Source: Corynebacterium sanguinis (GTDB lineage Bacteria > Actinomycetota > Actinomycetes > Mycobacteriales > Mycobacteriaceae). From it: DNA of 64,000 bases. Both the position numbers and the translations under genes were made by a program. How positions within the stretch are numbered: the first letter of the stretch is position 1; the number at the start of each line of letters is the position of its first letter. The stretch is from NCBI RefSeq assembly GCF_007641235.1, contig NZ_CP038157.1, forward strand, positions 1,550,001 through 1,614,000, written 5' to 3'. Below are positions 13,564 through 62,866 of this stretch, piece after piece. The notes beneath the pieces are model-generated. The model did not search any database, was not told where the DNA came from, and worked only from the letters and a program-made list of their open reading frames with translations.

Positions 13564-14229
13564 ATGGCTCGCCTACAACGCCGCATTCTCATAGGGGCCG
13601 TGGTCGCGGCAATCCTCATTGCGATCGCCGCTGTAGTCCTGCCGCGCACCCAGGTATTCGCGGTCGAAGAGATCGCCGTTGAGGGCGCGGTGCAGCTGAG
13701 CCCGGAGGAGGTCGAAGCTGCAACAGGGATTGTCAACGGTACCCCGATCGGGGCGGTCAACACCCACGACGCGGCCGTCGGTGTGGCGGGGCTCCCGTGG
13801 GTCGAAAGCGTGACGGTCACCAGGTCGTGGCCGTCGAAGATCAAGATAGAGCTGGTGGAGCATACCGCGGTGGCCTTTGTCGCCGAGCCCGACGGCAGCC
13901 ACCTGATCAACGCACAAGGGGAGGTGTTCGCCGTGGACGACCCGCCCGCCGGGGCGGTGGAGATCACCGGTGCGGCGGCTCGAGACGGCGCCGCGCTGTC
14001 CGGAGCGATGGGCGTGGTGTCGTCGATAAGCGGGCCGAGCCGCGAGGCAGTCGCCTCGATTGAGGCGCGCAGCCCGAACACGTTTGTTCTCAAGCTCAAG
14101 GACGGCCGCACCGTGGTGTGGGGGGCGAGCGAAAACAACGCCAACAAGGCGCTGGCGCTGGAGACCGTGCTGCAGCGCGAGGGCCAGGAGTTCAACATTT
14201 CCAACCCGCAGCAGGTGACGGTGCGCTAG
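13564..14229 (+). CDS. ftsQ: Cell-division protein FtsQ
   Basis: This 221-residue bitopic protein links FtsL and FtsB/DivIC at the division site. A short cytoplasmic stretch is followed by one membrane segment at about 6-26. The POTRA-type domain comes next (VEEIAVEGAVQLSPEEVEAA, then PWVESVTVTRSWPSKIKIELVEHTAVAF), and then the FtsQ C-terminal domain. It is short for the family but has the right domains and lies between murC and ftsZ as expected. Codons 153-156 contain one copy of the dispersed GTCGATAAG word, using a rare ATA codon. Confidence 0.94.
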   Translation: MARLQRRILIGAVVAAILIAIAAVVLPRTQVFAVEEIAVEGAVQLSPEEVEAATGIVNGTPIGAVNTHDAAVGVAGLPWVESVTVTRSWPSKIKIELVEHTAVAFVAEPDGSHLINAQGEVFAVDDPPAGAVEITGAAARDGAALSGAMGVVSSISGPSREAVASIEARSPNTFVLKLKDGRTVVWGASENNANKALALETVLQREGQEFNISNPQQVTVR

Positions 14230-14382
14230 GGGCGCGGCAAAACCCCAGGTTAAAACCCTAAAGTAAAGGTTTAGGGTAGTGACACGCCGGCCTAAAAACA
14301 TCAAAAGTGCAATTTCTCGCCCATGATGGAGACCACGTAAGGCCCATGAACCAAGAGTTACCTGAAAGGCGAGACACCCCCC
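14230..14382 (+). promoter_or_regulatory. ftsQ-ftsZ spacer with palindrome and probable ftsZ promoter region
   Basis: The spacer carries GCAAAACCCCAGGT at 14237-14250, followed at once by the perfect 8-bp inverted repeat ACCCTAAA (14255-14262) and TTTAGGGT (14270-14277). The second arm could itself serve as part of a -10 region. An A-rich stretch and GAAAGGCGAG, a plausible ribosome site, precede the ftsZ ATG. The same 14-mer recurs in the repeat array before hisD. Confidence 0.55.
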
Positions 14383-15612
14383 ATGACATCTCCCGCTAAC
14401 TACCTCGCCATGATCCGCGTCGTCGGAGTCGGTGGCGGCGGCGTCAACGCCGTCAACCGGATGATCGAGGAAGGGTTGAAAGGCGTCGAATTCGTCGCCG
14501 TCAACACCGACTCCCAGGCGCTGCTGTTCACCGACGCCGACACCAAGCTCGACATCGGTCGCGAGGCTACCCGTGGACTCGGCGCGGGCGCGAACCCGGA
14601 GGTCGGCCGCACCTCCGCAGAGGATCACAAGCAGGAGATCGAGGAGTCGCTTAAGGGCTCCGACATGGTGTTCGTCACCGCCGGCGAGGGCGGCGGCACC
14701 GGCACCGGCGCGGCCCCGGTCGTCGCTGGGATTGCTAAGAAGATGGGCGCGCTGACCATCGGCGTTGTTACCCGCCCCTTCTCGTTTGAGGGCAAGCGTC
14801 GCACCCGCCAGGCCATGGAGGGCATCGCCAACCTCAAAGAGGTCTGCGACACCGTCATCGTCATCCCCAACGACCGCCTGCTCCAGCTTGGCGACGCCGA
14901 ACTGTCCATGATGGAAGCCTTCCGCGCCGCCGACGAGGTGCTCTACAACGGCGTGCAGGGCATCACCAACCTGATCACCATCCCCGGCATGATCAACGTC
15001 GACTTTGCCGACGTGCGCTCCGTCATGGCCGACGCCGGTTCCGCGCTCATGGGCGTCGGCTCCGCCCGCGGCGACAACCGCGTCATGGCGGCCACGGAGC
15101 AGGCGATTAACTCGCCGCTGCTGGAGGCGACGATGGAGGGCGCGAAGGGCGTTCTCATCTCGGTGGCCGGCGGTTCCGACCTGGGACTGATGGAGGTCAA
15201 CAACGCCGCCTCCATCGTCGAGGAGAAGGCCGACGATGACGCCAACATCATCTTCGGCACGATCATCGACGACAACCTCGGCGACGAGGTGCGCGTGACC
15301 ATCATCGCGACCGGCTTCGACGAGAAGGCCAACGTGCGCCCCGACGCCGAGCAGCCGCAGTCGGAGGGTTCGACTCGCGCCGTGACCGTTGAGCCGGAGC
15401 CCGCCTCCGAGACTGCTACACCGGCGCCGCAGCGCGGCTCGCTTTTCGACGACCGCAGCGCCGACGCCCCGACCAGTGACTACGACCGCACCAGCGAGTC
15501 GCGCCAGCCGCGCCACCGCTACGAGGAGCGCCGCACCGGCCTGTTCACCGAGCGCGAGGAGCGCCGCGCGCCGCGTTACGACGACGTCGACGTCCCCGAC
15601 TTCCTGCAGTAA
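14383..15612 (+). CDS. ftsZ: Tubulin-like division GTPase FtsZ
   Basis: FtsZ polymerises at midcell with GTP and scaffolds the divisome. The 409-residue protein has the N-terminal nucleotide site [10 protein letters not shown] and the tubulin signature GGGTGTG at about 103-109. The T7/synergy region NVDFADV is also present. A charged linker of variable sequence begins near 315 and ends in the conserved C-terminal peptide DVPDFLQ, which in actinobacteria binds SepF and FtsW. The start [20 protein letters not shown] matches relatives. It lies after a 153-bp regulatory spacer, so it is probably transcribed both from the operon and from its own promoter. Confidence 0.98.
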
Positions 15613-15619
15613 GTAGGCG

Positions 15620-15742
15620 GCTGCGGGTTCGGGGGGCCTCCGCGCAGTATGGACTGCGCATTTTACGACGCCGGGCCGGCGAACCCGCAGGTCGCGTCAG
15701 GCCTGTGTGGCCATATTGCGCAGTAGACATTGCGCAGTGGCC
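15620..15742. repeat. Nested inverted and direct repeats between ftsZ and pgeF
   Basis: An 11-bp perfect inverted repeat (CTGCGGGTTCG near 15621-15631, CGAACCCGCAG near 15680-15690) encloses a smaller one, GCGCAGT-atgg-ACTGCGC. Just downstream, ATTGCGCAGT is present twice as a direct repeat separated by four bases (about 15715-15738). The word TGCGCAGT therefore occurs four times in about 100 bp. The large stem could also terminate ftsZ transcription. Confidence 0.7.
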
Positions 15743-15804
15743 CATGCGCTGCCGCGCACCGGGTGAGACGACCAGCCACGCAGGCATTACCCGCCGCGTC
15801 CCAC

Positions 15805-15810
15805 TAGCCT
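15805..15810 (+). promoter_or_regulatory. -10 box for leaderless pgeF
   Basis: TAGCCT ends 7 nt before the ATG at 15818, and no ribosome site is visible. This predicts transcription starting at or next to the start codon. Confidence 0.5.
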
Positions 15811-15817
15811 GGACCGT

Positions 15818-16573
15818 ATGCGAAACGCCACATCTGATCCCCACAGCGTGAGCGAGCGCCCCGTCCGCATGGTGTTTACCTCCCGTGCTGGCGGGGCGTC
15901 GGCGCCCCCGTACGCATCGTTCAACCTTGCTGAGCACGTTGGCGATGCCCCCGACGCCGTCGCCGACAACCGCGCGCGCTTAGCGCGCGTCCTCGGGCTT
16001 GATCCGCAGCGACTTGTTTGGATGGAGCAGCTGCACACCAACACCGTCACCGTCGTCGATGGCCCGCAGTCACAGCCCGTGGAGGCGACCGATGCCCTGG
16101 TCACCATCACGCCCGGCCTTGCCCTGTGCGTGCTGGTCGCCGACTGCGTGCCCGTGCTTTTATCCGACCACGCCGCGGGGGTGATCGCCGCGGTGCACGC
16201 CGGCCGCGTCGGGGCACGCAACGGCATTGTGCGCAAGGCGGTCGACGCCATGGTGGGGCTGGGCGCATCCCCGCGCAACATCCAGGCGCTGCTGGGGCCC
16301 GCGGCGGCGGGGGAGTCGTACGAGGTGCCCGGTGACATGGCTGCGGACGTCGAGAAGCAGCTGCCTGGCTCTCGGGTGACAACGCCACAGGGAACGAGTG
16401 GGCTGGATATCCGCGCCGGGCTGGTGCGCCAGCTGATGTCGATGGGGGTCACCCACATCGACGCGGACCCGCGCGATACCGTGGCCGATGAGGATTTCTT
16501 TTCGTACCGGCGCGAGGGCACGACAGGCCGCCAGGCCGGTGTGATCTGGTTGACGGGAGAAAGCGATGGATAG
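15818..16573 (+). CDS. pgeF: YfiH/PgeF-family laccase-domain protein (peptidoglycan editing factor / purine nucleosidase family)
   Basis: This 251-residue member of the multicopper-oxidase-like YfiH family lies, as is common, directly downstream of ftsZ and before yggS. The metal-site elements are visible: WMEQLHTNTV, VLVADCVPVL and VHAGRVGARNGIV, supplying the conserved His, Cys and His. E. coli YfiH removes wrongly incorporated residues from UDP-MurNAc peptides, and relatives are also reported as adenosine-cleaving or phosphorylating enzymes, so the exact activity is open. It overlaps yggS by 8 bp. Confidence 0.88.
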   Translation: MRNATSDPHSVSERPVRMVFTSRAGGASAPPYASFNLAEHVGDAPDAVADNRARLARVLGLDPQRLVWMEQLHTNTVTVVDGPQSQPVEATDALVTITPGLALCVLVADCVPVLLSDHAAGVIAAVHAGRVGARNGIVRKAVDAMVGLGASPRNIQALLGPAAAGESYEVPGDMAADVEKQLPGSRVTTPQGTSGLDIRAGLVRQLMSMGVTHIDADPRDTVADEDFFSYRREGTTGRQAGVIWLTGESDG

Positions 16574-17282: not shown

Positions 17283-17322
17283 CCCTCAACGGACGGCAAC
17301 TACCTGCAGGAGCACCAAACCT

Positions 17323-17802: not shown

Positions 17803-17825
17803 CGTTCGCCCGCTGCTAGCAGGTC

Positions 17826-19679: not shown

Positions 19680-22600
19680 ATGGTTGACGTCGGCGGGGTG
19701 TACCCCAAGGTCGATATGACGGGCGGCAGCAGTAGCTTCCCGGAGATGGAGCGCATCGTTGGTGCGTATTGGGATGAGGATGGCACGTTTCAGGCGTCGT
19801 TAGCAGGCCGCGAAGGCTGCGAGGAATACGTCTTTAACGACGGGCCCCCGTTCGCCAACGGCCTGCCCCACTACGGGCACCTGCTCACGGGTTACGTCAA
19901 GGACATCGTGCCGCGTTACCGCACGATGACCGGCCACCACGTGCCGCGCGTGTTCGGCTGGGACTGCCACGGCCTGCCCGCCGAGCTGGAGGCGGAAAAG
20001 CAGCTCGGCATCACGGACAAGGCCCAGATCGAGGACATGGGCCTGGAGAAGTTCAACGAGTACTGCGCCAAGTCCGTGATGAACTACGCCAGCGAGTGGG
20101 AAGACTACGTCAACCGCCAAGCGCGCTGGGTCGACTTCGAAAACGGCTACAAAACGATGGACCTGGACTTCATGGAGTCCGTCATGTGGGCGTTTAAGGA
20201 GCTCTACGACAAGGGCCTAATCTACCAGGGCTTCCGCGTCCTGCCGTACTCCTGGGCCGAGCACACGCCGCTGTCGAACCAGGAGACGCGGCTTGACGAC
20301 GCCTACCGCGAACGCCAAGACCCCACAGTGACCGTGACCATGCCGTTTACCGGCGCCCGCGCGGGTTACCAGGCCGAGAAGACGTGGGCCGAGCACCCCG
20401 AGCTTCACGACGCCGCCGCCATCGCCTGGACCACCACGCCGTGGACGCTACCGTCGAACCTGGCGCTCGCTGTGGGCCCCGAGGTCGAGTACTCCCTCGT
20501 GCGCGTCGGCTCCACGGGCGCGGAGGGCTTTGTCGGCGCCACGCTGCTGCTCGCCAGCAACTTGGTCGGCGCGTACTCGAAGGAGCTCGGCGAGGACGCC
20601 GAAGTCGTGGCCACGTTTAGCGGCGCGCAGCTCGAAGGCCTTGAATACACGCCCGTGTTCGACTACTTCGCCGACACCGCCAACGCGTTCATGGTGCTCA
20701 CCGCCGACTACGTCACCACCGAAGACGGCACCGGTGTGGTCCACCAGGCTCCCGCGTTCGGCGAGGACGATATGGCCACCACGGAGAAGTACTCGATCCC
20801 GCTGGTCATCCCCGTCGATGCCGACGGCAAGTTCACATCGCTGGTGCCCGAATACGAGGGCAAGCTCGTTTTCGACGCTAACCGCGACATCATCCGCGAC
20901 CTGAAGGCAGCGGGCCGCGTCGTGCGCGACCAAACCATCGTGCACTCCTACCCGCACTCGTGGCGCTCGGGCGAGCCGCTGATCTACATGGCGCTGCCCG
21001 CGTGGTTTGTCAAGGTCTCCCAGTTCCGTGACCGCATGGTGGAGCTGAACCAGGAGATCGAATGGATCCCGGCGCACATCCGCGACGGGCAGTTCGGTAA
21101 GTGGCTCGAGGGCGCGCGCGATTGGAACATCTCGCGCACCCGCTACTGGGGTTCGCCTGTGCCGGCGTGGGTCTCCGACAACCCCGAGTACCCGCGTGTC
21201 GACGTCTACGGCTCCCTCGACGAGCTCGAGCGCGACTTCGGTGTGCGCCCGGAAAGCCTGCACCGCCCCTACATCGACGAGCTGACCCGCCCCAACCCGG
21301 ATGACCCGACGGGTAAGTCCACGATGCGCCGCGTGCCGGATGTGCTGGACTGCTGGTTCGAATCCGGCTCCATGCCTTTTGCCCAGTACCACTACCCGTT
21401 TGAGAACGTCGCCGAGCACGACGCGCGCCAGCCCGCCGATTTCATCGTCGAGTACTCGGGCCAGACGCGCGGCTGGTTCTACGTCCAGCACGTGCTGTCC
21501 ACCGCGCTGTTCGACCGCCCGGCGTTTAAGAAGGTCGTCGCGCACGGCATCGTGCTGGGCTCCGACGGGCAGAAGATGTCGAAGTCGAAGGGCAATTACC
21601 CGAACGTCAACGAGGTCTTTGACCGCGACGGCTCGGATGCGATGCGCTGGTTCCTCATGTCCAGCCCGATCCTGCGCGGCGGCAACCTCGTTGTCACCGA
21701 GCAGGGCATCCGCGACGGTGTGCGCCAAGCGCTTCTGCCGATCTGGAACGCGTACAGCTTCCTGCAGCTCTACTCCTCGCATGAGGCGCGCTGGTCCGTC
21801 GACTCCGACAACGTGCTCGACCGCTACATCCTGGCCAAGACCCACGACCTGGTCGCGGGTGTCGCCCAGGCGCTGAGCGATACCCGCATCGCCGACGCCT
21901 GCGACGAGGTGCGCCAGTTCGCCGACACGCTGACCAACTGGTACGTGCGGCGCTCCCGCGACCGCTTCTGGGAGGGCCAGGAGGCGCATCCGGAGGCCTT
22001 CGACACGCTCTACACGGTGCTCGAGGTACTCACGCGGGTCACCGCACCGCTTCTGCCGTACATCACCGAGGTGATCTGGCGGGGCCTGACGGGCGGGCGT
22101 TCCGTGCACCTGGCGGATTACCCGCGCGCCGAGGAGATCCCGGCCGACGCTTCGCTTGTGGCCGCGATGGACGCGACGCGCGCGGTGTGCTCCGCGGCGT
22201 CGTCGGTACGCAAGGCCAACAAGCTTCGCAACCGACTGCCGCTGCCGAAGCTCACCGTCGCCCTGCCGGAGTCGGCGCGGCTCGCCGACTTCGCGGCCGC
22301 GATCCGCGACGAGGTCAACGTCAAGGAGGTCGAGCTGACCGACGACGTCGCGTCCGCCGGTTCGTTCGAGGTTGTTGTCAACGCGAAGGTGGCGGGTCCG
22401 AAGCTGGGCAAGGATGTGCAGCGCGCGATCAAGGGCGTCAAGGCGGGCAACTACGAACGCCAGGGCGACAACGTCGTGGTGGACGGAGACATCGTGCTCA
22501 CCCCTGAGCTCTACACCGAGCGGCTCGTCGCCGTTAACCCCGAGTCCACGGCGCGTATCGACGCCCTCACCGGCGTCGACGGCCTCGTGGTGCTCGACAC

Positions 22601-22944: not shown

Positions 22945-24318
22945 ATGTCGCGCTGGGTGTTGCATATCGATATGGATGCGTTTTACGCGTCCTGCGAACA
23001 GCTCACCCGCCCGACGCTCAAGGGGCGCCCGGTGCTGGTCGCCGGCGTGAGCGGTCGGGGAGTGGTCGCTGGCGCGAGCTACGAGGCGCGCAAGTACGGC
23101 GCGCGCTCGGCGATGCCGACCCACCGCGCGGCCCGGCTCGTCGGGCCAAAAGCCGTGCTTGTCGCCCCGCGCCGGGCGGTGTACACCACGGCGTCGCGTC
23201 GGGTGTTCGAGGTGATCGCGCGCCACGTGGACGTCGTCGAGCAGCTCTCCATCGACGAGGCTTTTATGGAACCCGCCGAGCTCGCGGACGCGAGCCCCGA
23301 CGACATCCGTGAATGGGCGAACCGGCTGCGCGCGGAGATTAAACAGGAGACGGGGCTGCCGTCGTCGATAGGCGCGGGCTCCGGCAAGCAGTACGCCAAG
23401 ATCGGCTCCGGGCTGGCGAAGCCGGATGGGGTGTTTGTCATCCCGCGCGAGGAGCAGCTGGAAATCCTGCACCCGCTGCCCGTCAACCAGCTCTGGGGCG
23501 TGGGGCCCGTGACCGAGGCGAAGCTCGCGTCGGTGGGGATCGAGACGATCGGCGACTTCGCGGCGCTCAGCGAGCGCGAGGTAGAGATCGCGCTCGGCGG
23601 TGCGGTGGCGAAGCAGCTGTGGGGCCTGGCGCGTGGCATCGACAACCGCGAGGTCGCGCCGCGCGCCGAGGCGAAGCAGATCTCCTCGGAACACACCTAC
23701 CCGCAGGATTTGACCACCCCGCCACAGGTGGACGAGGCGCTCAAGCGCGCGGCGGCCGAGTCGCATCGCCGCTTGCTTCACGACGGCCGCGGGGCGCGCA
23801 CCGTCAGCGTGAAGCTGCGCATGGCCGACTTTCGTATCGAGTCGCGCTCGGCCACGCTGCCGTACGCCACCGACGACGCCGAAACGCTTCTTGCCACCGC
23901 CTTCAAACTCGTGCGCTACCCCGAGGAAGTTGGGCCGATCCGGCTCGTCGGGGTCTCATACTCCGGGCTGGAGGACGCGCTGCAAGACGTGCTGTTCCCC
24001 GAGCTTGACCAGGTGATCTCCGCAGGCAGCGTCACCTCCGATGTCGAGGTCGGGGTCAGCGACTACGCGGAGCCGGTGCACGCCACGGTGACGGATGCCC
24101 CCTTAGGCTGGCGCGCCACGCAAGACGTCTACCACCCCGAGTACGGCCACGGCTGGATCCAGGGCACCGGGCACGGGTGGGTCACCGTGCGTTTCGAGAC
24201 CAGGGCGACGGGCCCGGGCCGTGCGGTGAGCCTGCGTGTCGACGACTCCCTCCTCACGCCCGCCGACCCCATCGACTCCCTGGCCTGGGACGAGTGGCTG
24301 GGGCAGGAAGGCGGCTAG
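22945..24318 (+). CDS. dinB: Y-family DNA polymerase IV (DinB)
   Basis: This 457-residue translesion polymerase has the catalytic acids in HIDMDAFYASCEQL (Asp9, Asp11) and SIDEAFM (Asp104, Glu105). Palm, fingers, thumb with helix-hairpin-helix (LWGVGPVTEAKLASVGIETI) and little-finger domains follow in order. It is longer than E. coli DinB because of about 80 extra residues at the C-terminus (WRATQDVYHPEYGHGWIQGT region), which are common in actinobacterial DinB1-type proteins. It ends 4 bp into the convergent asparaginase gene. Confidence 0.95.
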   Translation: MSRWVLHIDMDAFYASCEQLTRPTLKGRPVLVAGVSGRGVVAGASYEARKYGARSAMPTHRAARLVGPKAVLVAPRRAVYTTASRRVFEVIARHVDVVEQLSIDEAFMEPAELADASPDDIREWANRLRAEIKQETGLPSSIGAGSGKQYAKIGSGLAKPDGVFVIPREEQLEILHPLPVNQLWGVGPVTEAKLASVGIETIGDFAALSEREVEIALGGAVAKQLWGLARGIDNREVAPRAEAKQISSEHTYPQDLTTPPQVDEALKRAAAESHRRLLHDGRGARTVSVKLRMADFRIESRSATLPYATDDAETLLATAFKLVRYPEEVGPIRLVGVSYSGLEDALQDVLFPELDQVISAGSVTSDVEVGVSDYAEPVHATVTDAPLGWRATQDVYHPEYGHGWIQGTGHGWVTVRFETRATGPGRAVSLRVDDSLLTPADPIDSLAWDEWLGQEGG

Positions 24319-25247
24319 TCCAGCAGCGCCCGCGGGTCGGTGCCCGTGGCCAGCGCCGTGAGCAGTGCCATGCGCGCCTGGCCTGCGCGCAGCCAGCCGG
24401 CAGAGAGCACCCCGTGCTGCGCGAGTGTCGCACCGCCGCCACCGCCGCCGTAGGCGAGGCTGACTTCGCCGGACGGCACGGAGGTGCTTATCACCACCGG
24501 AATGTCCGCCTCGGCGGCGCGCACCAGCGCGCGCCCCATCTCTTCGGAGACGTTGCCGGAGCCGAGCGCCTCGACGACGATGCCGTCGACGCCGCTGTCG
24601 ATGGTGAAGTCGACGAGCTCGGGGCCCGCGCCGGGCCACGCCCGCAGGATAGGCACGTTGAACCTGGCCAGGGGAGCGGGGTCGACGGCGGCGGGGCGCG
24701 GCAGCGTCATCGGGGCGGTGAGCGCGAAGGCGCGCCGGTTATCGGTGTCGTGCTTGTACAGACCGCGGGCGGCGAGGCTGTCGCCGCCGAAATGCACGGT
24801 CACGCCGCGACCGCGGGCCAGGGGGTCGGCGGCCATCTCGATGGCGCGACGCAGGTTGGCGGGCCCGTCGGCGTGCGGGTGGTCGGCGGGCAGCTGCGCG
24901 CCGGTGAGGATCACGGGCCGCGGGTCGCGCTGGACCAGGTCGAGCGCGAGCGCCGTTTCCGCCATGGAGTCGGTGCCATGGGTGATCACGATGCCGGAGA
25001 TGAGCGCGTCGTCAAGCGCAAGGCTCACGAGCGCAATGAGCGTATCGACGTCCCCGAGCCCCATAGAAGAGGAGTCAAGGAGCACCGAGTCGTAGACACG
25101 GGTGGGTTCCGATGCGTCGCAGGAGGTGACGAGTTCTTCGGCGGAGAGCGTGGGCACGCGCGCGCCCGAGGAATCGGTGGTGCAAGCGATTGTGCCGCCG
25201 GTTGCGATGACGAGGACGAAGGGCTCGCCGGGCTGGGGAAGAGTCAT
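24315..25247 (-). CDS. L-asparaginase
   Basis: This 310-residue asparaginase hydrolyses L-asparagine to aspartate and ammonia. The first catalytic motif is IATGGTIACTTDS (Thr19) and the second is ITHGTDSMAETA, both typical of bacterial type I/II enzymes. No signal peptide is seen, so it is probably cytoplasmic. Its 3' end overlaps dinB by 4 bp in convergent orientation. Upstream it faces a lipoprotein gene across an 86-bp spacer that contains a small palindrome. Confidence 0.92.
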   Translation of the reverse strand: MTLPQPGEPFVLVIATGGTIACTTDSSGARVPTLSAEELVTSCDASEPTRVYDSVLLDSSSMGLGDVDTLIALVSLALDDALISGIVITHGTDSMAETALALDLVQRDPRPVILTGAQLPADHPHADGPANLRRAIEMAADPLARGRGVTVHFGGDSLAARGLYKHDTDNRRAFALTAPMTLPRPAAVDPAPLARFNVPILRAWPGAGPELVDFTIDSGVDGIVVEALGSGNVSEEMGRALVRAAEADIPVVISTSVPSGEVSLAYGGGGGGATLAQHGVLSAGWLRAGQARMALLTALATGTDPRALLD

Positions 25248-26150: not shown

Positions 26151-27836
26151 CTAACGCCACACCTCATCCGTCCACATCGTGGACAGCGTCAACACCCGAG
26201 CGCGCGAGTCCCCCTTACTAATGCGCTCGCGCCACCGCCTGCGCAGCCACCGATCGTGGCTGGTGATAATCACTGTGCCCTCAAAATCGGCGAGCGCGAC
26301 CTCGAGCTCTTCTGCGAGAACCAGGGAGAGGTGGTTGGTGGGCTCGTCTAACAGCAGCAAGTCTGGAGGAGAGGCGAGGATGACCCCGAGGGAGACGCGG
26401 CGGCGCTGGCCCAACGAAAGGTCCTCGAGCGGTGTCGCCGCCTGCTCCTCGTTCATCAGCCCGAGGCTGACCAGCGAGGGTGTGCCGTCGGGCACGAGGG
26501 AATCGAAAACGTCCTCCGCGCTGCGCGTCAGGTCCGGCCAAGAGTCGTCCTGCTCAAGCCTCGCGATCGTCATCTCCTCGGGCATGATTAGCTCGCCGCC
26601 GTAGTCGGACAAGGTGCCGTCAAGGATCTTCAGCAGCGTGGATTTACCGGACCCGTTCGGTCCCTCCACCAGCAGTTGGTCGCCGGGCTGCACCTTCACA
26701 TCCAGGGGTGCGAGGCGGTCGGCGACACTGAGTTGCTTGGCCACCACCGCGGGCAGACCGAGGCTGGTCACCGTGTGCGGCGGCAGGCCACGAAACTCAA
26801 GCCGCGCTGGGGGCGCGGGGATCTCGGAGCGCTCAAGGGCCTCGAGCCTGTTTTCGGCGGAACGACGCCTGTTGCCGACCGTTTTGGCCGCGCGGTCGGC
26901 GTAGAACTTAGCCGCGATCCGCGACTCCGTTTTGTTCTCGTGGGAATGAAAGACATCATCCGCACTCTGCTGGGCCGCGGCCGCCAGCCTCGTCCTTTCC
27001 TGCTCCTGGGCGGCGTAGTCGCTGGCCCAGCGCACGCGGCGGGCGTGGCGCGCCGCCAGGTAGTCGCTGAAGGATCCGGAAAAGCGCGCGCCTTGGCGCG
27101 TGCTCTCACCGAAGCCACCCTCTGCCCCGAGCGAGGGGTCGAGGTCGACGAGCCCGTCGCAGGCGGCATCAAGAAAGAAGCGGTCGTGGGAGGCAGCGAG
27201 CACGGGGCCGTCAAACGCGCGCAGCTCGTCGATGAGAAAGTCCACGGCCTCGTCGTCGAGGTGGTTGGTTGGCTCGTCAAGCACCATCGCGTCAACGGGG
27301 CGCAGCAGCAGCGTCGCCAGGGCGAAGCGGCGACGCTGGCCACCGGACATCTCACCCAGCGGGGTCGCCAACGAAACGTTGGCAAGGCCCAGCCCAGCCA
27401 ATACGGTCGCGATGCGCGCGTCGAGCTCCCACACCCCGGAGTTCTCGGCGCGGGCGAGGGCGCGGTCGAACGAGGCGGCGAGTGAATCGTTGTCCGGCTC
27501 GCTGGCCATGCGCTCGGCGAACTCCGTGATGTCGCGTTCGATGAGGCGCAGTTCGTTGACGGCGGCGTCGATAAGCGACGAAGCTGGCTCGGTAAACGGC
27601 AGGGAGGTTTCCTGGGCGATGAACCCTGTCAGCGGCGGAGTGACCAGCGTGCCTGCGTCGGGGTGAAGCTCGCCCGAGATCACGCCGAGGAGCGTCGATT
27701 TGCCCGCGCCGTTTTCCCCGATGAGCCCGGTGACCGAGCCGGAGGGCACAGCGAACGAGATGTCGGTGAGCACGCGGTGGCCGCCGGGGTAGGAAAAGGA
27801 GATGCCGTCCAGGCCGATGTGCAATGGCGCGACCAT
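26151..27836 (-). CDS. ABC-F family ATPase (two nucleotide-binding domains, no membrane part)
   Basis: This soluble 561-residue protein has two ABC domains. The first has Walker A GENGAGKS at 40-47, signature MSGGQRRR and Walker B MVLDEPTNHLD. The second has Walker A GPNGSGKS, a variant signature LSLGQRRR and LLLLDEPTNHLS. ABC-F proteins act on ribosomes as translation factors or antibiotic-protection proteins; which applies here cannot be told. The start at 27836 lies one base after the stop of the upstream lipoprotein gene (TAACATG), so translation is probably coupled. In-frame codons further upstream run into that gene. Confidence 0.93.
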   Translation of the reverse strand: MVAPLHIGLDGISFSYPGGHRVLTDISFAVPSGSVTGLIGENGAGKSTLLGVISGELHPDAGTLVTPPLTGFIAQETSLPFTEPASSLIDAAVNELRLIERDITEFAERMASEPDNDSLAASFDRALARAENSGVWELDARIATVLAGLGLANVSLATPLGEMSGGQRRRFALATLLLRPVDAMVLDEPTNHLDDEAVDFLIDELRAFDGPVLAASHDRFFLDAACDGLVDLDPSLGAEGGFGESTRQGARFSGSFSDYLAARHARRVRWASDYAAQEQERTRLAAAAQQSADDVFHSHENKTESRIAAKFYADRAAKTVGNRRRSAENRLEALERSEIPAPPARLEFRGLPPHTVTSLGLPAVVAKQLSVADRLAPLDVKVQPGDQLLVEGPNGSGKSTLLKILDGTLSDYGGELIMPEEMTIARLEQDDSWPDLTRSAEDVFDSLVPDGTPSLVSLGLMNEEQAATPLEDLSLGQRRRVSLGVILASPPDLLLLDEPTNHLSLVLAEELEVALADFEGTVIITSHDRWLRRRWRERISKGDSRARVLTLSTMWTDEVWR

Positions 27837-27837
27837 G

Positions 27838-29368: not shown

Positions 29369-30284
29369 GTTCCGCGCCCTACCCGTGCCGGAGGGGCTCG
29401 ATGGGATGCGGGTGGACCAGGCGGTGTCGAAGCTGTTTGGGCTCTCGCGCAGCGTCGCCGCCGAGCTCGTCGCCGAGGGCAGCGTGCTTATCGACGCCTC
29501 CCGGGTCGCCAAGTCAGACCGCGTGCGCGCCGGCGCACTGCTCGAAGTCACGCTGCCCGAGCCGCAGAAGCCCCCGGCGCCGAAGGCCGAGCTCGTCGAC
29601 GGGCTGAGCATCATCTACAGCGACGACGACGTGATCGCGGTGGACAAACCGGTCGGCGTCGCCGCGCACCCCACGCTGGGCTGGGAGGGCCCCACCGTCG
29701 TCGGCGGTCTCACGGCGATGGGCTTTCCGCTTCCCGACGCCGGCCCGCCCGAGCGCAAGGGAATCGTCCAACGCCTCGACGTGGGCACCTCCGGGGTCAT
29801 GGTGGTGGCCAACAGCGTGCAGGGCTACTCGGTGCTCAAGCGCGCGTTTAAGGAGCGCACGGTGTCGAAGACCTACCACGCCGTGGTCCAGGGCCTGCCT
29901 GACCCGATCGTGGGCACCATCGACGCCCCAATCGGGCGCCACCCCTCCTCCGGGTGGAAGTTCGCCGTAACCTCGGACGGGCGCCACGCGGTCACGCACT
30001 ACGAGCTCGTCGAGGCGTTTCGCGAGGCGAGCCTGCTGGAGATCAGCTTAGAAACCGGCCGCACTCACCAGATCCGCGTGCACATGTCCGCCGTGGGCCA
30101 CCCGTGCGTTGGCGACCCGATGTACGGCTCGGATCCAAACCTGGCCAAGCGCGTCGGGCTGATCCGCCAGTGGCTGCACGCCACCAAGCTCGGGTTCATC
30201 CACCCCCGCACCGGCGACTTCATGGAGGTTGAATCCCCGTACCCGGCCGATCTCGCCCACGCGCTCGAGGTGCTGCGCGCGTGA
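29358..30284 (+). CDS. RluA/RluD-family 23S rRNA pseudouridine synthase
   Basis: This 308-residue enzyme isomerises uridines in large-subunit rRNA. An N-terminal S4 RNA-binding domain (residues about 18-75) precedes the catalytic domain. The active-site motif RLDVGTSG has catalytic Asp141, and [21 protein letters not shown] is the second family signature (shown here in part). Position after lspA and domain order fit RluD, but the target uridine cannot be read from sequence. The ATG overlaps lspA, and the stop overlaps the next GTG. Confidence 0.93.
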
Positions 30285-38198: not shown

Positions 38199-38250
38199 CT
38201 GCTTATCGACGCCCTCACTCGCGCCCCGGAAGCCTCCGCGCTGACGCCGC

Positions 38251-49390: not shown

Positions 49391-50788
49391 CTAGAACGGT
49401 GGCTGTTCGTTGAGCCCGAGGGCGTCGAGTAGCTTCTCGGCCGACCAGATCTCAATGTCCTGGCCCTTGTCCATGAGCTCGCGGGCGCGCTTTTCCTTCG
49501 ACGTCATCGTCGCCCACTCGCCGGTGACCAAGATGGTGGTCTTCTTGGTCACGTTCTTGCCCACCTGACCGCCCTGGGCGGCGATGCCGGACCACAGTTG
49601 GCCCTTGTCAAAAGGCTCGAACTCGCCGGTGAGCGTGACGTTGTGGCCGTAGAGCGGGGAGTTGGGGTCGGCTTGGGGGTCGGGGTCCGGGATGGTGTCC
49701 GGGGTGGCCACGGACTGCCAAGGGGCGGGGCCGCGGCGCGGGGATTCTTCCTCCGGCGCGGACTCCTGGGCGGGTGCGGGCACCCGCGATTCGTGCTGGT
49801 TGCTGCCGCGCGGGGTCACGGCGGCGCCGTCTGTCGAGGAGGCCTGCAGCGCCCGGGCTGCGCCCGAGCGGTCGCGCAGCACGGGTGTGACGCGCTCGTC
49901 GCCAATCACGCCGAGGGTAAACCCGGTGGAGTGGACGAAGTTCATCAGGCTTCCCTCGTGGCCGGCGTCGCGGGCAAGGCCCACCATGATGCCCGCGCAC
50001 GCGGCGGCGTCCTCGCCGGCATCGTGGTGCTTGTCCAAACTGACCCCGAAGTGCTCCGCGAGGGTCGGCAGGCGGTGGTTTTCCACCTTCAGCTTCGCCG
50101 CGCGCGACTGCGCGAGCGTGCACGCGAACAGGATGTTCGGGATGTCGTGCCCCACGGCGCGGCAGGCGTCGCGCAGGGCCGTGGCGTCGAACTGCGCATT
50201 GTGCGCGACCACGGGCAGCTCGCCGACGAACTCGACCAGCTCGTCGATGCGCTGCGCCACCGGCGGGGCGTCGGCGACCGCCCCGGCGGAGATGCCGTGG
50301 ATGGCCACGTTGGAGGGTTCAAACTCGTCGAGGCCCGGCGGGGGAGTGCACAGCCAGGTCGCGCGCTCGGTTTCCTCGCCGTCGATGACTCGGACGAGGC
50401 CGATTTGGCAGATCGATCCCCACGCCGGATTGGCCGTCTCGACGTCGAAGCCGACGAAGTCGAACCCCGGGATCCGTGTACTAGCGGCCTCGCCGCGCGC
50501 TGCGGCGTCGATAAGCTCGCGCAACCGCGCGGGGGCCTGGGCGTCGCCGGGGAAGAAAGCCACATCGACCGTGCGCTGCGGCGTTTCAATGCCGCACGCG
50601 CCGCCGCGCCAGGCGTCACCGTCGGTGACGTGCAGGCGCGTGATCGTGGTGGCGTCGATACGCACGGGCTCGCTTGAGCCGCTTATCGACGCCTCCAGCG
50701 GCGACGGGCTGAGCACTAGCTCAGTGCCCTCCACCTTGAGCGTGACCCCGCGCGCCTTGAGCGCAGAATGTGAAGAAACCTCAGACAC
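49391..50788 (-). CDS. DEDDh 3'-5' exonuclease with C-terminal BRCT domain
   Basis: This 465-residue protein has an N-terminal region of about 100 residues of unclear fold. A DnaQ-like exonuclease domain follows, with FVGFDVETANPAW (Asp/Glu pair), VAHNAQFD and HHDAGEDAAACAGIM supplying the DEDDh acids and His. A Pro/Glu-rich linker leads to a C-terminal BRCT domain (NVTLTGEFEPF and GKNVTKKTTILVTGEW). It likely trims DNA ends in repair or replication. AAAGGAG precedes the GTG start. It contains two GTCGATAAG words in opposite orientation. Confidence 0.88.
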   Translation of the reverse strand: MSEVSSHSALKARGVTLKVEGTELVLSPSPLEASISGSSEPVRIDATTITRLHVTDGDAWRGGACGIETPQRTVDVAFFPGDAQAPARLRELIDAAARGEAASTRIPGFDFVGFDVETANPAWGSICQIGLVRVIDGEETERATWLCTPPPGLDEFEPSNVAIHGISAGAVADAPPVAQRIDELVEFVGELPVVAHNAQFDATALRDACRAVGHDIPNILFACTLAQSRAAKLKVENHRLPTLAEHFGVSLDKHHDAGEDAAACAGIMVGLARDAGHEGSLMNFVHSTGFTLGVIGDERVTPVLRDRSGAARALQASSTDGAAVTPRGSNQHESRVPAPAQESAPEEESPRRGPAPWQSVATPDTIPDPDPQADPNSPLYGHNVTLTGEFEPFDKGQLWSGIAAQGGQVGKNVTKKTTILVTGEWATMTSKEKRARELMDKGQDIEIWSAEKLLDALGLNEQPPF

Positions 50789-53054: not shown

Positions 53055-53666
53055 CTAGGGTTCGGTCGGCGGCGGTGAGCTCGCGTCGAGAAGGCCCGTG
53101 AGCAGCAGCGAAATCGCGGCCGCAACGTCCGTGGCGGCGGTCGCGGGTTCGGCGGCGCGCTCACCGGTCGCCTCCGCGAGCTGCTCCGCGGCCTGGTGGA
53201 CACTCGCTGCGCCGAGGGTCATGTACAACAGTCCGTCGGCCACCGAGTGCACATTGCTTATCGACGCCTCCCGCCGCGCGTCCGCTAACTCGCGCGCGAT
53301 GGCCTCGCGCATGATCCGGGTCAGCTCGTGTGCCACGGTGGACCCCGGTTGGCTCATCGCGGTGGTGACAACCTCCGCGCCGTCGCGGTGGCGAAGCAGG
53401 GTTTCGCGCAGTTTCGCGCACAGTGCCGCGGGGCTGGGGGCGGCGTGGGGTGGGGCGTCGATAAGCGGGGCGATGATGAGCGTGGCGATTCCCGCGATGA
53501 GTTCCTGCTTGTTGCTGATGTGCCAATACAGCGCGCCGGGGGCGACCCCGAGGGCGGAGGCGACGCGGCGCATGGTCACGTCCGCCAGGCCGTATTCGTC
53601 GAGGATGGCCAAGCCCTGGCGGCTGATCGACTCCCGAGACAACGGCGGATGCATGCTTGTCGACAT
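53055..53666 (-). CDS. TetR-family transcriptional regulator
   Basis: This 203-residue regulator has a TetR helix-turn-helix at about 10-55 (ISRQGLAILDEYGLADVTMRRVASALGVAPGALYWHISNKQELI, cited by its ends). A helical ligand domain follows, with a Thr/Pro-rich C-terminus. The open frame runs 339 bp further upstream, but that part covers the divergent promoter region and is not TetR-like. A perfect palindrome lies 20 bp before the ATG and may be its operator. Likely targets are itself and the divergent lipoprotein-membrane pair. It carries two GTCGATAAG words. Confidence 0.9.
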   Translation of the reverse strand: MSTSMHPPLSRESISRQGLAILDEYGLADVTMRRVASALGVAPGALYWHISNKQELIAGIATLIIAPLIDAPPHAAPSPAALCAKLRETLLRHRDGAEVVTTAMSQPGSTVAHELTRIMREAIARELADARREASISNVHSVADGLLYMTLGAASVHQAAEQLAEATGERAAEPATAATDVAAAISLLLTGLLDASSPPPTEP

Positions 53667-53823: not shown

Positions 53824-54522
53824 GTGATGTTTCCAACCGGTTCCCACAAGGTAGCCGCGACAACTGTCGCACTGGCCGCCGCCTCTATCTCACTCACCGC
53901 CTGCGGCTCCGATGAGGAGACCGCTGACGTAGCCTCCTCCACCTCGACGGTTACCTCCGCGACGACGACGCAGAGCACCGAGCCTTCCGGCACGACGGAG
54001 GCCACGGAGTCGAGCGCCGCTGAGTCGTCTGCCGCTCAGTCGGCGGCGAACGCCCCTGGTGCCAACCCCCAGGCCCCGGCGGCCGCTGGCGGGGGGCTGT
54101 CCAACCCGTTCCAAGACCCGAACTTCACGCCGCCGCCCCAGCAGCCGCTGCAGGGTGGCAGCCAGGCCTCCGACGCTGACAAGCAGGAGATGGAGCAGAC
54201 AATGCACGCGGCGCTCAACCCGCCGAGCCCGGAAAAGTGGACCCGCGTACTGATGGAAAATTCCTGCCGCAAGGTGACGGAGCCGGTGCAGGAGGAGATG
54301 AACCGCTCGGGCTACACCCTGGACCAGATTGAGCAGGCGGCGCGCCTGCAGGCCCAGGCCGGCCAGGCGGTTACGGTGCCGCAGAGCACGGTGTCGCTTA
54401 CCGACGCCAAGGTTGACGGCAACCGGGCGTCGGCCACCGCGACGGTGACCAACCAGAACGGCAGTGAAGAGCAGACCCTGATTTTCGAGCGCGAAGACGG
54501 GCGCTGGAAGCTCTGCAACTAA
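53824..54522 (+). CDS. Lipoprotein with low-complexity linker
   Basis: This 232-residue protein has a lipoprotein signal peptide ending in SLTAC (Cys at about 27). A Ser/Thr/Ala/Glu-rich linker of about 60 residues comes next, then a Pro-rich stretch. The C-terminal domain (about 120-232) has two Cys (ENSCRKV and the final WKLCN) that could form a disulphide, and an end FEREDGRWKLCN like that of NTF2-fold secreted proteins. Its function is unknown. GTG at 53824 or ATG at 53827 can start it. Its TAA overlaps the ATG of the next gene (TAATG). Confidence 0.78.
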   Translation: MMFPTGSHKVAATTVALAAASISLTACGSDEETADVASSTSTVTSATTTQSTEPSGTTEATESSAAESSAAQSAANAPGANPQAPAAAGGGLSNPFQDPNFTPPPQQPLQGGSQASDADKQEMEQTMHAALNPPSPEKWTRVLMENSCRKVTEPVQEEMNRSGYTLDQIEQAARLQAQAGQAVTVPQSTVSLTDAKVDGNRASATATVTNQNGSEEQTLIFEREDGRWKLCN

Positions 54523-55061: not shown

Positions 55062-56100
55062 CCGCCGACGCGCCCTTGACCTGGGTGCTGATCTGATCCA
55101 CCGCCCCGAGGATGGAGACGAACGACGAGATCAGATAGTTGTGCCGCTGTGCGGGGGACAAGCCCTGGGAGACGAGGCAGGTTGTTTCCACGTGTAGGTG
55201 CAGGTATCCGTCGAGGTCGAGCAGGTAGGCGCGCAGGCCCGCGGTTTGCTCGTTGAGGTCGTTGCAGATCAGCCACATGGCGAGGAACCCGTCCTCGCTG
55301 CGCTGGCCGGTGTCCCACATCGCGGTGATCCGGGCGTACTCGCCGGCATCGATGCAGACCGCGAACGCGATGGAGTTAACACCGGTGGTGATGAGGTCCT
55401 CGGCGGGGAAGTCGTAGGTGAAGTCGAGCATGTCCAACGTGTCCGTAAACGAATCCAAGTCAACGGGCTCAACAAACTCGTCGTCGACGTTGTCGTAAAC
55501 GTCGGGCACGTCGTGGATGTCCGAAAACTTTCGGTGTTCGCCGCGCGGAAGGTGGCGCTCGGAGGGGTGGCGGCCCAACAAAGCGTCGGTGTCTTGGGCG
55601 CGCGCCAGCGCCGGCGGCAGCGGCTGGTCGAACTCGATAGGCAAGAAGCGTTGGCGCAGCTGGGTGGAAAAGGCCGCGGCGTGCTCGAAGGCGTCGGCAA
55701 GCTCGGCCATGAGCTGCTCGTCCGTGAGCCCGCAGCGCGTGCGCACCCCAGCGCGCAGGCTGACGGCGAGGTCGCCGGAATCCATCAGCCGGTACGAGGC
55801 GGTCGGCCCGACTCTGTCGCGATTCCATTCGTTGATGAAGTCGGCCAGCTCCGCGGAGCGCTCGAATTCGGTGGGCACGCGTTCGGTGAAGTCGGCGACC
55901 AGCATCAGCGGCTTGTCGTAGGAGATCCACACCGTGCTCACGAACGCGTACGCAGGCACGACGGCGCGGTCCGGGCGGTCGGGATGGTACATCGGGCTCA
56001 GCCCGAGGCCGTCGAGGGCAGCGACGATGCGCTTAAGGGTGACCTCGGATGAGGAGGCGGACTCGTCGGGGTAGGGTAGCTGCGCGCTGTGCTTTCCCAC
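55033..56100 (-). CDS. YbjN-domain protein (two YbjN-like halves)
   Basis: This cytoplasmic protein of about 355 residues contains two YbjN-like segments. One is near residues 15-160 (VTLKRIVAALDGLGLSP to LRAGVRTRCGLTDEQL) and the other is near 205-345 (LDMLDFTYDFPAEDLITTG to LHVETTCLVSQGLSPAQ). The fold resembles type III secretion chaperones, and in actinobacteria its role is unknown. A GTG at 56100 is 5 nt after AGGGAGG. The GTG at 56106 overlaps that ribosome site, so it is less likely. It is divergent from hisD across the repeat array. Confidence 0.82.
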   Translation of the reverse strand: MGKHSAQLPYPDESASSSEVTLKRIVAALDGLGLSPMYHPDRPDRAVVPAYAFVSTVWISYDKPLMLVADFTERVPTEFERSAELADFINEWNRDRVGPTASYRLMDSGDLAVSLRAGVRTRCGLTDEQLMAELADAFEHAAAFSTQLRQRFLPIEFDQPLPPALARAQDTDALLGRHPSERHLPRGEHRKFSDIHDVPDVYDNVDDEFVEPVDLDSFTDTLDMLDFTYDFPAEDLITTGVNSIAFAVCIDAGEYARITAMWDTGQRSEDGFLAMWLICNDLNEQTAGLRAYLLDLDGYLHLHVETTCLVSQGLSPAQRHNYLISSFVSILGAVDQISTQVKGASAVNWPGRAEG

Positions 56101-56785: not shown

Positions 56786-56858
56786 AACAACAAGACCCCA
56801 AGCAAGCCAACGCGGCGTCGCGAAGCGGGCAAAGAACCGGCGGTGTCGGGCAGGGGAA

Positions 56859-56908: not shown

Positions 56909-59941
<3,033 letters not shown>

Positions 59942-59943
59942 AC

Positions 59944-60132
59944 ATGCCGCAGGAGTTCAGCGTGGCCAGCGGAATGTGGGTGCTGATCAGCTTCCTTATC
60001 GCCGGGTTGCTTCTCGGCGGGGTGTGGTCGGCCTATCAGAGCGGGTCGAAGGTGGCCACGGTCGTGCTCGCCATCGCCGCCGCGGTGGCGCTGTGTGTCG
60101 CTGTACTGTCCATGCTGGGCGCAGTGGGGTAG
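59944..60132 (+). CDS. Small two-helix membrane protein within the his cluster
   Basis: This 62-residue protein is almost entirely two hydrophobic segments (VLISFLIAGLLLGGVW and VVLAIAAAVALCVAVLSML). It lies 2 bp after hisB and 3 bp before the transporter gene. The C. glutamicum his cluster, as I recall it, also has a small membrane protein at this place. Function unknown; a partner of the transporter is possible. Confidence 0.78.
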   Translation: MPQEFSVASGMWVLISFLIAGLLLGGVWSAYQSGSKVATVVLAIAAAVALCVAVLSMLGAVG

Positions 60133-60135
60133 ACG

Positions 60136-61449: not shown

Positions 61450-61452
61450 ACT
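61447..61452 (+). promoter_or_regulatory. -10 box for leaderless hisH, overlapping a stop codon
   Basis: TAAACT includes the stop of the transporter gene and ends 8 nt before the hisH ATG at 61461. Confidence 0.45.
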
Positions 61453-61460
61453 AATTCGAC

Positions 61461-62111
61461 ATGACGCAACCGACATCGCCATCCGTCGTCCTGCTCGACT
61501 ACGGAGCCGGAAACATCCGCTCCGCCCAGCGCGCGCTCGAGCACGTCGGGGCGAGCGTCACCGTCACCGACGACCCGAAGCTGGCCGTCGACGCCGATGG
61601 GCTCGTCGTCCCCGGCGTCGGCGCGTTCGCGTCGTGCATGGAGGGGCTGCGCGCTGTCAACGCCCCGCGCGTGATCGGCCAGCGCCTCGCGGGCTCTCGC
61701 CCCGTGCTCGGGATCTGCGTCGGTTTCCAGGTGCTTTTTGAGCGCGGCGTCGAGCACGGGGTGGACGCTTCGGGGATCGGGGAGTGGCCCGGGGTCGTCG
61801 ATAAGCTGCAGGCGAAAGTGCTGCCGCACATGGGGTGGAACACCGTGGACATTGCGCCGGGTTCGGAGCTTTTCGCCGGGTTGGACCCGGAGACGCGGTT
61901 CTACTTCGTGCACTCCTACGGCGTACGGTCGTGGGAGATGCAGCCGGACGAGTTCATCGCCGCGCCGGCTGTGTCGTGGTCCGAGCACGGCGGGGACCGC
62001 TTCGTCGCCGCCGTGGAAAACGGGCCGCTGTGGGCGACCCAGTTCCATCCGGAGAAGTCCGGGGAGGCGGGCTTGGCGCTGCTGCGAAACTGGGTCCGCA
62101 CCCTGCGTTAG
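61461..62111 (+). CDS. hisH: Imidazole glycerol phosphate synthase glutaminase subunit HisH
   Basis: This class I glutamine amidotransferase of 216 residues feeds ammonia to HisF. The catalytic Cys is Cys86 in [12 protein letters not shown], and the His/Glu pair is in QFHPEKSG near the C-terminus. [14 protein letters not shown] at the N-terminus is the family start. Its TAG stop is part of a -10 box for hisA. Confidence 0.97.
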
Positions 62112-62114
62112 ACT
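62109..62114 (+). promoter_or_regulatory. -10 box for leaderless hisA, overlapping a stop codon
   Basis: TAGACT contains the hisH stop and ends 8 nt before the hisA ATG at 62123; no ribosome site is visible. Confidence 0.45.
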
Positions 62115-62122
62115 TGGTCGCT

Positions 62123-62866
62123 ATGAGTTTCACACTTCTCCCCGCCGTTGACGTCGTCAACGGCCAAGCGGTGCGCCTCGACCAGGGCGAGGCCGGAACC
62201 GAAAAGAGCTACGGCTCTCCTCTCGAGGCCGCCGAGCGGTGGCGCGACGAGGGAGCGCAGTGGCTGCATTTCGTGGACCTCGACGCCGCCTTCGGTCGCG
62301 GCTCCAACCACGAGCTGATGGCTGAGATCACCCGAAACCTCGGCATCGCCGTGGAGCTGACGGGGGGCATTCGTGACGACGCCTCCCTCGAACGCGCCCT
62401 CGCCACCGGTGCGAAGAGGGTCAACATCGGGACCGCAGCGCTGAACAACCCGCAGTGGACGGCAGACGCGATCAAGCGCCACGGCGACGCGATTGCCATC
62501 GACATCGCGGTGCGCGAGGAAGACGGCCAGTGGCGCACCAAGGGCCACGGGTGGACTTCCGACGGCGGGGACCTGTGGGAGGTCGTCGAGTTTTTCGACG
62601 CCGCCGGGTGCGCGCGCTTCGTGGTCACCGACGTCAGCCGAGACGGCACGCTGACCGGGCCGAACGTGGATCTGCTGCGGGATGTGTCGGCGGCAACTGA
62701 CGCTTTTGTTACGGCGAGTGGCGGGGTGTCGTCGATAAGCGATGTGCTCGAGATTGCGCAGTTCGCGCAGGAGGGGATCGACTCGGTCATCATCGGTAAG
62801 GCGCTCTACGAGCACAAATTCACCCTGCGCGAGGCGCTGGATGCGCTGGGACGCAGCGAGAGCTGA
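62123..62866 (+). CDS. hisA: ProFAR isomerase HisA
   Basis: This TIM-barrel isomerase of 247 residues opens the ribosyl ring of ProFAR to PRFAR, the substrate of His[20 protein letters not shown] holds the N-terminal catalytic Asp. [14 protein letters not shown] has the second, and [13 protein letters not shown] and [13 protein letters not shown] are the phosphate sites. In some actinobacteria HisA also serves tryptophan synthesis (PriA); this cannot be decided from motifs alone. The open frame extends far upstream through hisH and is ignored. Confidence 0.96.

Follow-up and report, generated by a model that had tools for sequence, protein, structure and literature searches.

A dispersed bipartite motif of Corynebacterium sanguinis and its relatives as a candidate DNA uptake sequence

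The window analysed here, a stretch of 64,000 nucleotides of the Corynebacterium sanguinis genome (positions 1,550,001-1,614,000 of a single contig of 2,362,885 bp), carries a short word repeated on both strands, and the question is which unit is repeated and what maintains it. A preliminary description of the window had reported 16 copies of the 9-mer GTCGATAAG, most of them extending to the 12-mer GCGTCGATAAGC. Each of the 16 positions proved exact, and 100 shuffles gave a mean of 0.22 copies with a maximum of 2, in agreement with the roughly 0.2 chance copies that had been estimated. The 12-mer occurs 11 times exactly in the window versus 0.01 copies expected from trinucleotides. The whole genome holds 98 + 96 = 194 copies, and the reversed control is absent (0 + 0), which shows that the enrichment is real and far larger than had been stated. 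The analysis showed that the 12-mer represents just one version of an 11-bp motif in two parts, CGTCG-NN-AAGC, which also has a lesser form CGTCG-NN-ACGC, and this motif may serve as a DNA uptake sequence.

The two free central positions were revealed by the neighbours of the 12-mer in an 844-kb sample of the genome, composed of the window and 39 stretches of 20 kb. In this sample CGTCG-N2-AAGC is present in 554 copies versus 25.8 under a Markov model, while the same half-sites at spacers of 0, 1 and 3-11 bases yield 9 to 55 copies each. Likewise, when 80 kb of the same genome was searched for split words (4 or 5 bases, a gap of 1-6, then 4 bases), CGTCG-N2-AAGC came out as the best hit. The weaker form CGTCG-NN-ACGC reached 195 copies versus 44. 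Specificity is sharp: the only single-base changes of CGTCGNNAAGC, the AAGC form, that reached twice the Markov expectation with at least 6 copies were CGTGG.., ..GAGC, ..TAGC and ..ACGC. Genome-wide, CGTCGNNAAGC is present in 737 + 777 = 1,514 copies versus 34 + 40 = 74 for the reversed control, and 13% of these copies are spelled GCGTCGATAAGC. The unit is therefore not the 12-bp word first described but a degenerate, asymmetric and non-palindromic motif. Beyond the core, the flanks follow the three-base rhythm of coding DNA, the strongest position being a G two bases 5' of the core (443 of the 554 sites); a mild preference was also observed for G immediately 5' and for a purine immediately 3' of the core.

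The window contains 45 copies of CGTCGNNAAGC, versus 1 to 7 for each other spacer from 0 to 11, and 24 copies of CGTCGNNACGC. All 45 sites of the AAGC form are given below, and those overlapping a 9-mer of the preliminary description are marked as reported.

2326..2336, minus strand, CGTCG-CG-AAGC
4303..4313, plus strand, CGTCG-AC-AAGC
6003..6013, minus strand, CGTCG-TC-AAGC
8030..8040, minus strand, CGTCG-AA-AAGC
8321..8331, minus strand, CGTCG-AC-AAGC
10277..10287, minus strand, CGTCG-GC-AAGC
13521..13531, minus strand, CGTCG-CC-AAGC
14021..14031, plus strand, CGTCG-AT-AAGC, reported, forces an ATA codon
14886..14896, minus strand, CGTCG-CC-AAGC
15441..15451, minus strand, CGTCG-AA-AAGC
16348..16358, plus strand, CGTCG-AG-AAGC
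20291..20301, minus strand, CGTCG-TC-AAGC
20402..20412, minus strand, CGTCG-TG-AAGC
23775..23785, minus strand, CGTCG-TG-AAGC
25007..25017, plus strand, CGTCG-TC-AAGC
27566..27576, plus strand, CGTCG-AT-AAGC, reported
29486..29496, minus strand, CGTCG-AT-AAGC, reported
29729..29739, minus strand, CGTCG-GG-AAGC
30438..30448, plus strand, CGTCG-AT-AAGC, reported
32937..32947, plus strand, CGTCG-AT-AAGC, reported
33090..33100, minus strand, CGTCG-GC-AAGC
33812..33822, minus strand, CGTCG-AT-AAGC, reported
38201..38211, minus strand, CGTCG-AT-AAGC, reported, intergenic
42696..42706, plus strand, CGTCG-TC-AAGC
43113..43123, plus strand, CGTCG-AC-AAGC
43266..43276, minus strand, CGTCG-AC-AAGC
43581..43591, plus strand, CGTCG-AC-AAGC
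43807..43817, minus strand, CGTCG-AC-AAGC
45960..45970, plus strand, CGTCG-CC-AAGC
48107..48117, plus strand, CGTCG-TC-AAGC
50506..50516, plus strand, CGTCG-AT-AAGC, reported
50681..50691, minus strand, CGTCG-AT-AAGC, reported, forces an ATA codon
52078..52088, plus strand, CGTCG-AC-AAGC
53256..53266, minus strand, CGTCG-AT-AAGC, reported
53456..53466, plus strand, CGTCG-AT-AAGC, reported
54396..54406, minus strand, CGTCG-GT-AAGC
55692..55702, plus strand, CGTCG-GC-AAGC
56816..56826, plus strand, CGTCG-CG-AAGC
57216..57226, plus strand, CGTCG-AC-AAGC
57643..57653, minus strand, CGTCG-GC-AAGC
57850..57860, minus strand, CGTCG-AC-AAGC
59091..59101, plus strand, CGTCG-AT-AAGC, reported
59575..59585, minus strand, CGTCG-GC-AAGC
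61796..61806, plus strand, CGTCG-AT-AAGC, reported
62730..62740, plus strand, CGTCG-AT-AAGC, reported

Fourteen of the 16 reported 9-mer sites lie inside the AAGC form. Counting the full motif changes two impressions left by the 9-mer. The first 27 kb, in which a single copy had been noticed, contain 15 of the 45 AAGC sites, and both forms together are distributed over consecutive 8-kb bins of the window as 7, 13, 9, 9, 5, 8, 9 and 9. The inverted neighbours that had been pointed out are not a property of the full motif, which is without strong pairing; the gaps between its 749 sites in the 844-kb sample are near exponential (coefficient of variation 1.10).

To relate the motif to genes, a simple caller was run on the same sample (694 genes, coding fraction 82%), and both forms were counted against synonymous-codon shuffles in coding DNA and against a Markov model between genes. 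Coding sites numbered 639 versus 72 +/- 7 in the shuffles, and all six registers were enriched (observed/shuffled 14/1.7, 70/2.0, 95/35, 14/0.8, 22/8.4 and 424/23.8). Between genes, 106 sites were found versus 7.8, a 13.7-fold excess. These counts agree with the earlier proposal that selection acts on DNA and not on protein. The preferred register, with 424 of the 639 coding sites, corresponds to Leu CTT - NNC - Asp GAC when the opposite strand is translated, and it is probably preferred because the motif costs the proteins least there. The motif covers 338 of the 1,911 CTT codons (17.7%) and 15 of the 209 ATA codons. At least five reported copies had been said to force the rare ATA codon; those at 14022 and 50682 do so, while those at 30439, 53257 and 62731 are intergenic by the simple gene calls, which can miss genes. 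By the same calls, and with the same limit, the copy at 38202 is intergenic, as had been described, and those at 45739 and 53457 also fall between genes.

With respect to chromosome layout, dnaA lies at 810 kb of the contig. The full motif showed no significant strand skew over the 749 sites, either at the best split (permutation p 0.49) or about oriC (p 0.17), where a skew had been proposed as a check. The 12-mer was likewise not significantly skewed at the oriC split (p 0.15) and showed no regional clustering (Rayleigh p 0.42). Eight stretches of more than 6 kb in the sample are free of the motif, some of them cut by the end of a sampled stretch, and their gene contents were read except in stretches L001 and L011 and the first case in L016. 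They include two rRNA operons as well as ordinary genes, such as those of a condensation-domain protein and of tyrosyl-tRNA synthetase. The motif-free region 7061-14817 of stretch L021 (genome 1,207,061-1,214,817, with a lower G+C of 0.600) carries an integrase and an MmeI-type restriction-modification enzyme. In stretch L004, the motif-free region 10496-14447 has a transposase of the Mutator family in the vicinity of genes for VKOR and DsbA-like proteins.

The occurrence of the motif was then compared across 242 Corynebacterium genomes. Genomes with a ratio of motif to reversed control of at least 4 were called carriers and those below 2.5 non-carriers; the four intermediate genomes were left out of the two-group tests. 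The distribution is bimodal, with 170 carriers, 68 genomes near background and 4 between, so the enrichment extends to relatives, as the preliminary description had asked. Carriers have a median of 1,090 copies (range 115 to 1,964), and non-carriers a median of 58 with a control median of 66. The strand z-score across the 170 carriers has a mean of 0.01 (standard deviation 0.79). None of 149 genomes from 30 other genera of the family reached a ratio of 4; the highest ratio noticed there was about 2.6 (genome G338, 373 versus 143), and most were near or below 1. A search for a replacement word in 80 kb from each of five non-carriers (G007, G011, G043, G121 and G241) revealed none comparable.

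The phylogenetic placement of the trait was examined with a HelY tree of 18 genomes and two outgroups, from which the carrier G036, having no HelY match in its stretch, and two other intended outgroups without HelY were left out. The deepest split of this tree sets carriers G005 and G071 together with non-carrier G206 on one side, and both states occur on the other side. Two to three changes of carrier state are needed, with 6 of the 17 inner branches well supported. The motif is therefore read as an old trait with losses, given the modest support of the tree. In the aligned HelY genes of 9 carriers, 12 distinct motif positions were found, eight in one genome, three in two and one in four. Compared at these columns, the remaining carriers match the motif exactly in 18 of 144 cases and differ from it by one base in 11; for 9 non-carriers the corresponding figures are 0 and 8 of 162. 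The comparisons are not independent of one another. Non-carriers G132 and G232 have one HelY motif site each, at other positions. Sites in HelY are thus partly kept and partly replaced across carriers, and are not kept in non-carriers. Among the 80 TadA loci kept from named genomes, that of Corynebacterium sp. S30M has 18 motifs in 21 kb, and that on a C. urealyticum metagenome contig has 0 in 7.2 kb.

In 10 carriers compared over 80 kb each, the core is constant and its edges vary by lineage. T stands 5' of the core in 50 of 56 sites of G022, 64 of 86 of G100 and 59 of 78 of G036, while G stands there in 38 of 56 sites of G067 and 20 of 25 of G030; in G036, C occupies the second base 3' of the core in 47 of 78 sites. 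In whole genomes, of which 18 of the 242 were picked by eye, T 5' of the core reaches 92% in G099, 90% in G022 and 84% in G130, versus 20% in C. sanguinis and 7% in G055. The free dinucleotide also differs. AT is the commonest in C. sanguinis, G067, G030, G022 and G100, while G071, G237 and G056 favour TC, CA or TA with no AT in 80 kb, and G005 has 2 AT among 51 sites. The same G071, G237 and G056 contain 1,720 to 1,901 motif copies and yet 0, 0 and 1 copies of GCGTCGATAAGC; G071 is deep-branching in the HelY tree.

Taken together, these properties make it slightly more probable than not that CGTCG-NN-A[A/C]GC is a Corynebacterium DNA uptake or self-recognition sequence, of the type of the DNA uptake sequences (DUS) of Neisseriaceae and the uptake signal sequences (USS) of Pasteurellaceae. 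In common with these, the motif is abundant, equal on both strands and enriched at the DNA level in and between genes; it has a core with dialects, and the machinery is encoded. It would work like a DUS, as a putative member of that class, and we infer its role in uptake, the protein that reads it and the drive that spreads it. In such a scheme, DNA released from lysed relatives would bring along one motif copy every 1-1.5 kb or so. The motif would be bound by a receptor at the cell surface, for which a minor (pseudo)pilin of the Tad pilus or a partner protein of ComEA is the likeliest candidate, and the bound DNA would be drawn through the mycomembrane and wall and handed to ComEA. A single strand would then pass ComEC and recombine. 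Biased uptake with recombination would act as a drive that spreads and maintains the motif in whichever register the proteins tolerate. A lineage losing uptake or its specificity would lose the motif, and one with a shifted receptor preference would acquire a new dialect.

The genome of C. sanguinis encodes candidate components for these steps. Its Tad locus (stretch L072, 12,591-7,721, minus strand) is next to a helicase gene and close to topA. It encodes TadA (TIGR03819), two T2SSF proteins, a pilin-like protein with DUF4244 and two TadE-like proteins, of which one matches NF041390 below the curated cut-off. The genes comEA-comEC are located at 1,361,486-1,363,765 of the contig (stretch L073, 6,486-8,765). 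In another actinobacterium, Micrococcus luteus, Tad and ComEA-ComEC are described as essential for transformation in an excerpt of PMC8467076. The strength of the protein matches differs between the two groups: T2SSF is matched at E <1e-8 in 153 of 170 carriers versus 31 of 68 non-carriers (p 1.8e-12), and ComEC differs slightly (p 0.02), both uncorrected for phylogeny. These differences hint that the constraint on the pilus may be relaxed in non-carriers. Alignments of Flp, TadE and TadG from 10 carriers and 9 non-carriers showed no separating feature by eye. The FtsQ model (PF03799), meant as a universal control, matches only 135 of the 242 genomes, and use was made only of its even split by presence (96 of 170 carriers versus 36 of 68 non-carriers, p 0.67); match strength was compared for T2SSF and ComEC.

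Several results weigh against an uptake function. ComEC was found in 241 of the 242 genomes, so the carriers are not set apart by it. T2SSF was found in 233 of the 242, and its presence (E up to 0.001) did not separate 166 of 170 carriers from 63 of 68 non-carriers (p 0.12). Four of the 170 carriers are without a T2SSF match, and the main exception to the Tad link is G171, a genome given as 100% complete that has 1,535 motif copies and no such match. Moreover, nine of nine Tad loci of non-carriers, chosen for good T2SSF matches, keep most Tad genes; stops within these loci may stem from high-scoring segment pairs running past gene ends. G206 is without a TadE match. The presence of ComEC was rejected as a discriminator on these counts, as was that of Tad, whose genes are mostly readable in non-carriers. 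The inverted terminator pairs that are common, though not defining, in DUS were not seen: the neighbours less than 30 bp apart among the 749 sites are 3 tandem, 3 convergent and 7 divergent, and there is no concentration at terminators, with 0.60 sites per kb between convergent genes versus 0.93 per kb in coding DNA. Taken by itself, the 12-mer is borderline asymmetric between the strands when the chromosome is divided at the best point (63/43 versus 35/53, permutation p 0.05). Literature searches, whose hits were partly examined, brought up no account of natural transformation for Corynebacterium. Because the T2SSF presence test was not significant and the 12-mer skew was borderline, our estimate for the uptake reading was lowered very slightly.

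Searches of the literature gave no earlier report of such a motif in Corynebacterium or Actinobacteria among the hits, which were partly examined; CGTCGNNAAGC was not found as text, and those full-text occurrences of GTCGATAAG that were examined looked unrelated by title. Among known systems, the DUS of Neisseriaceae, given as 943 to 5,918 copies per genome in an excerpt of PMC3630211, a range that includes the 1,514 copies counted here, resemble it in being short and asymmetric, in hundreds to thousands of copies in and between genes, and in having a constant core, lineage dialects and some relatives devoid of them, as far as that excerpt goes. The Corynebacterium motif differs from them in its unrelated, bipartite sequence with a free dinucleotide, its actinobacterial host and the lack of terminator-type inverted pairing; no ComP-like receptor emerged from the present analysis. 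The USS of Pasteurellaceae is of the same order in copy number, about 1,300 in H. influenzae (excerpt of PMC5217627) versus 1,514 here, and the excerpt of PMC12616744 describes its receptor as unknown until a recent prediction. Unlike the USS, whose core AAGTGCGGT is unrelated, the motif is not built into terminators. Chi shares its short, asymmetric and abundant nature, while the full motif has no significant strand skew and RecC is missing. The FtsK-orienting polar sequences (KOPS) and matS are also dispersed short words, from which it differs in the lack of polarity and of ori/ter clustering. HIP1 of cyanobacteria is a palindromic, very frequent and genome-wide word; frequency and spread are shared, while the Corynebacterium motif is not a palindrome. 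Uptake is favoured because the motif is symmetric between the strands, abundant, sharply specific, enriched at the DNA level, losable and written in dialects, a combination that suits an uptake sequence better than Chi, KOPS/matS or HIP1. Thus, of the four functions that had been offered in the preliminary description, uptake fits best, and recombination and segregation are weakened by the lack of skew, of clustering and of RecC.

The best surviving alternative, which we nevertheless consider improbable, is that the motif is the site of a nucleoid-organising, segregation or occlusion protein lost by some lineages. The genome-wide, DNA-level and bimodal occurrence with drifting flanks is what coevolution between a DNA-binding protein and its sites would produce, but signals of the matS, Noc, SlmA and KOPS type are unevenly placed or skewed, whereas the placement of the 12-mer does not depart from uniformity and the full motif is without significant strand skew, and many motif positions turn over between species. 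A little less probable is a Chi-like recombination signal read by the helicase-nuclease that resects DNA ends, which in this genus is presumably AdnAB. Abundance, presence in coding DNA and the borderline asymmetry of the 12-mer would suit such a signal; PDDEXK_1 nuclease domains were found in 141 of 141 sampled genomes, and many of the matches listed fall in open frames roughly 1,000 aa long, which would suit AdnA/AdnB. However, E. coli Chi is strongly skewed, and the full motif shows no significant replichore skew. PDDEXK_1 occurs in carriers and non-carriers alike, and its presence therefore cannot explain the 68 motif-free genomes; we also know of no need for Chi in mycobacterial AdnAB. 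A Chi of the RecBCD type was rejected, as RecC was matched in 0 of 242 genomes and RecBCD is therefore presumably absent.

More doubtful still is a self-mark of some other system, such as a sequence recognised by a methyltransferase, an initiation point for distributive chromosomal transfer or a tag exempting self DNA from a nuclease. A losable, dialect-forming tag suits any self/non-self system; however, methylation and restriction targets are usually avoided and not accumulated, and the one MmeI-type enzyme noticed sits in the motif-free integrase island. Finally, an origin as a side effect of biased codon or codon-pair use (Leu CTT - NNC - Asp GAC, opposite strand) would accord with the single dominant register but is ruled out to near certainty, since synonymous shuffles reproduce so few of these sites, the other five registers are enriched 2.6 to 35 fold, the intergenic excess is beyond the reach of codon pairs, other spacers are not comparably frequent and 68 relatives are without the motif.

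Two further observations were made in the same genome. A second over-represented family comprises TGACCGTGACAT with 39 copies in the 844-kb sample (0.09 expected), CACCGTGACAT with 19 and AAAACCCCAGGT with 23 (0.18 expected), and all of them (39/39, 19/19 and 23/23) are intergenic by the simple gene calls. The TGACCGTGACAT family often forms local arrays with a spacing of about 85 bp, in the window at 56276-56741 and also in stretches L014, L017 and L019, and we take it to resemble a dispersed intergenic tandem repeat similar to mycobacterial interspersed repetitive units (MIRU). In addition, 305-aa frames at about 189276, 216962 and 631101 of the contig give Bac_DnaA-like ATPase matches of identical score, and these three frames are probably copies of a transposon accessory ATPase.

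To our knowledge, Neisseriaceae and Pasteurellaceae are the only families with known sequence-tagged uptake of DNA. If CGTCG-NN-A[A/C]GC is an uptake sequence, it would be a third, independent case of uptake specificity, outside Proteobacteria, whose evolution could be tested by comparison. The wider proposition, to which we give just under an even chance, is that the genus is naturally transformable with specific uptake through components of the Tad pilus, that the dialects act as partial mating barriers from species to species and that the repeated losses mark lineages giving up sex. The finding would then point to natural transformability in many corynebacteria and indicate the best candidate genomes, and genetic tools for non-pathogenic species that carry the motif would gain a simple tag. 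It would also provide a genome-readable marker for the gain and loss of bacterial sex across 242 genomes.

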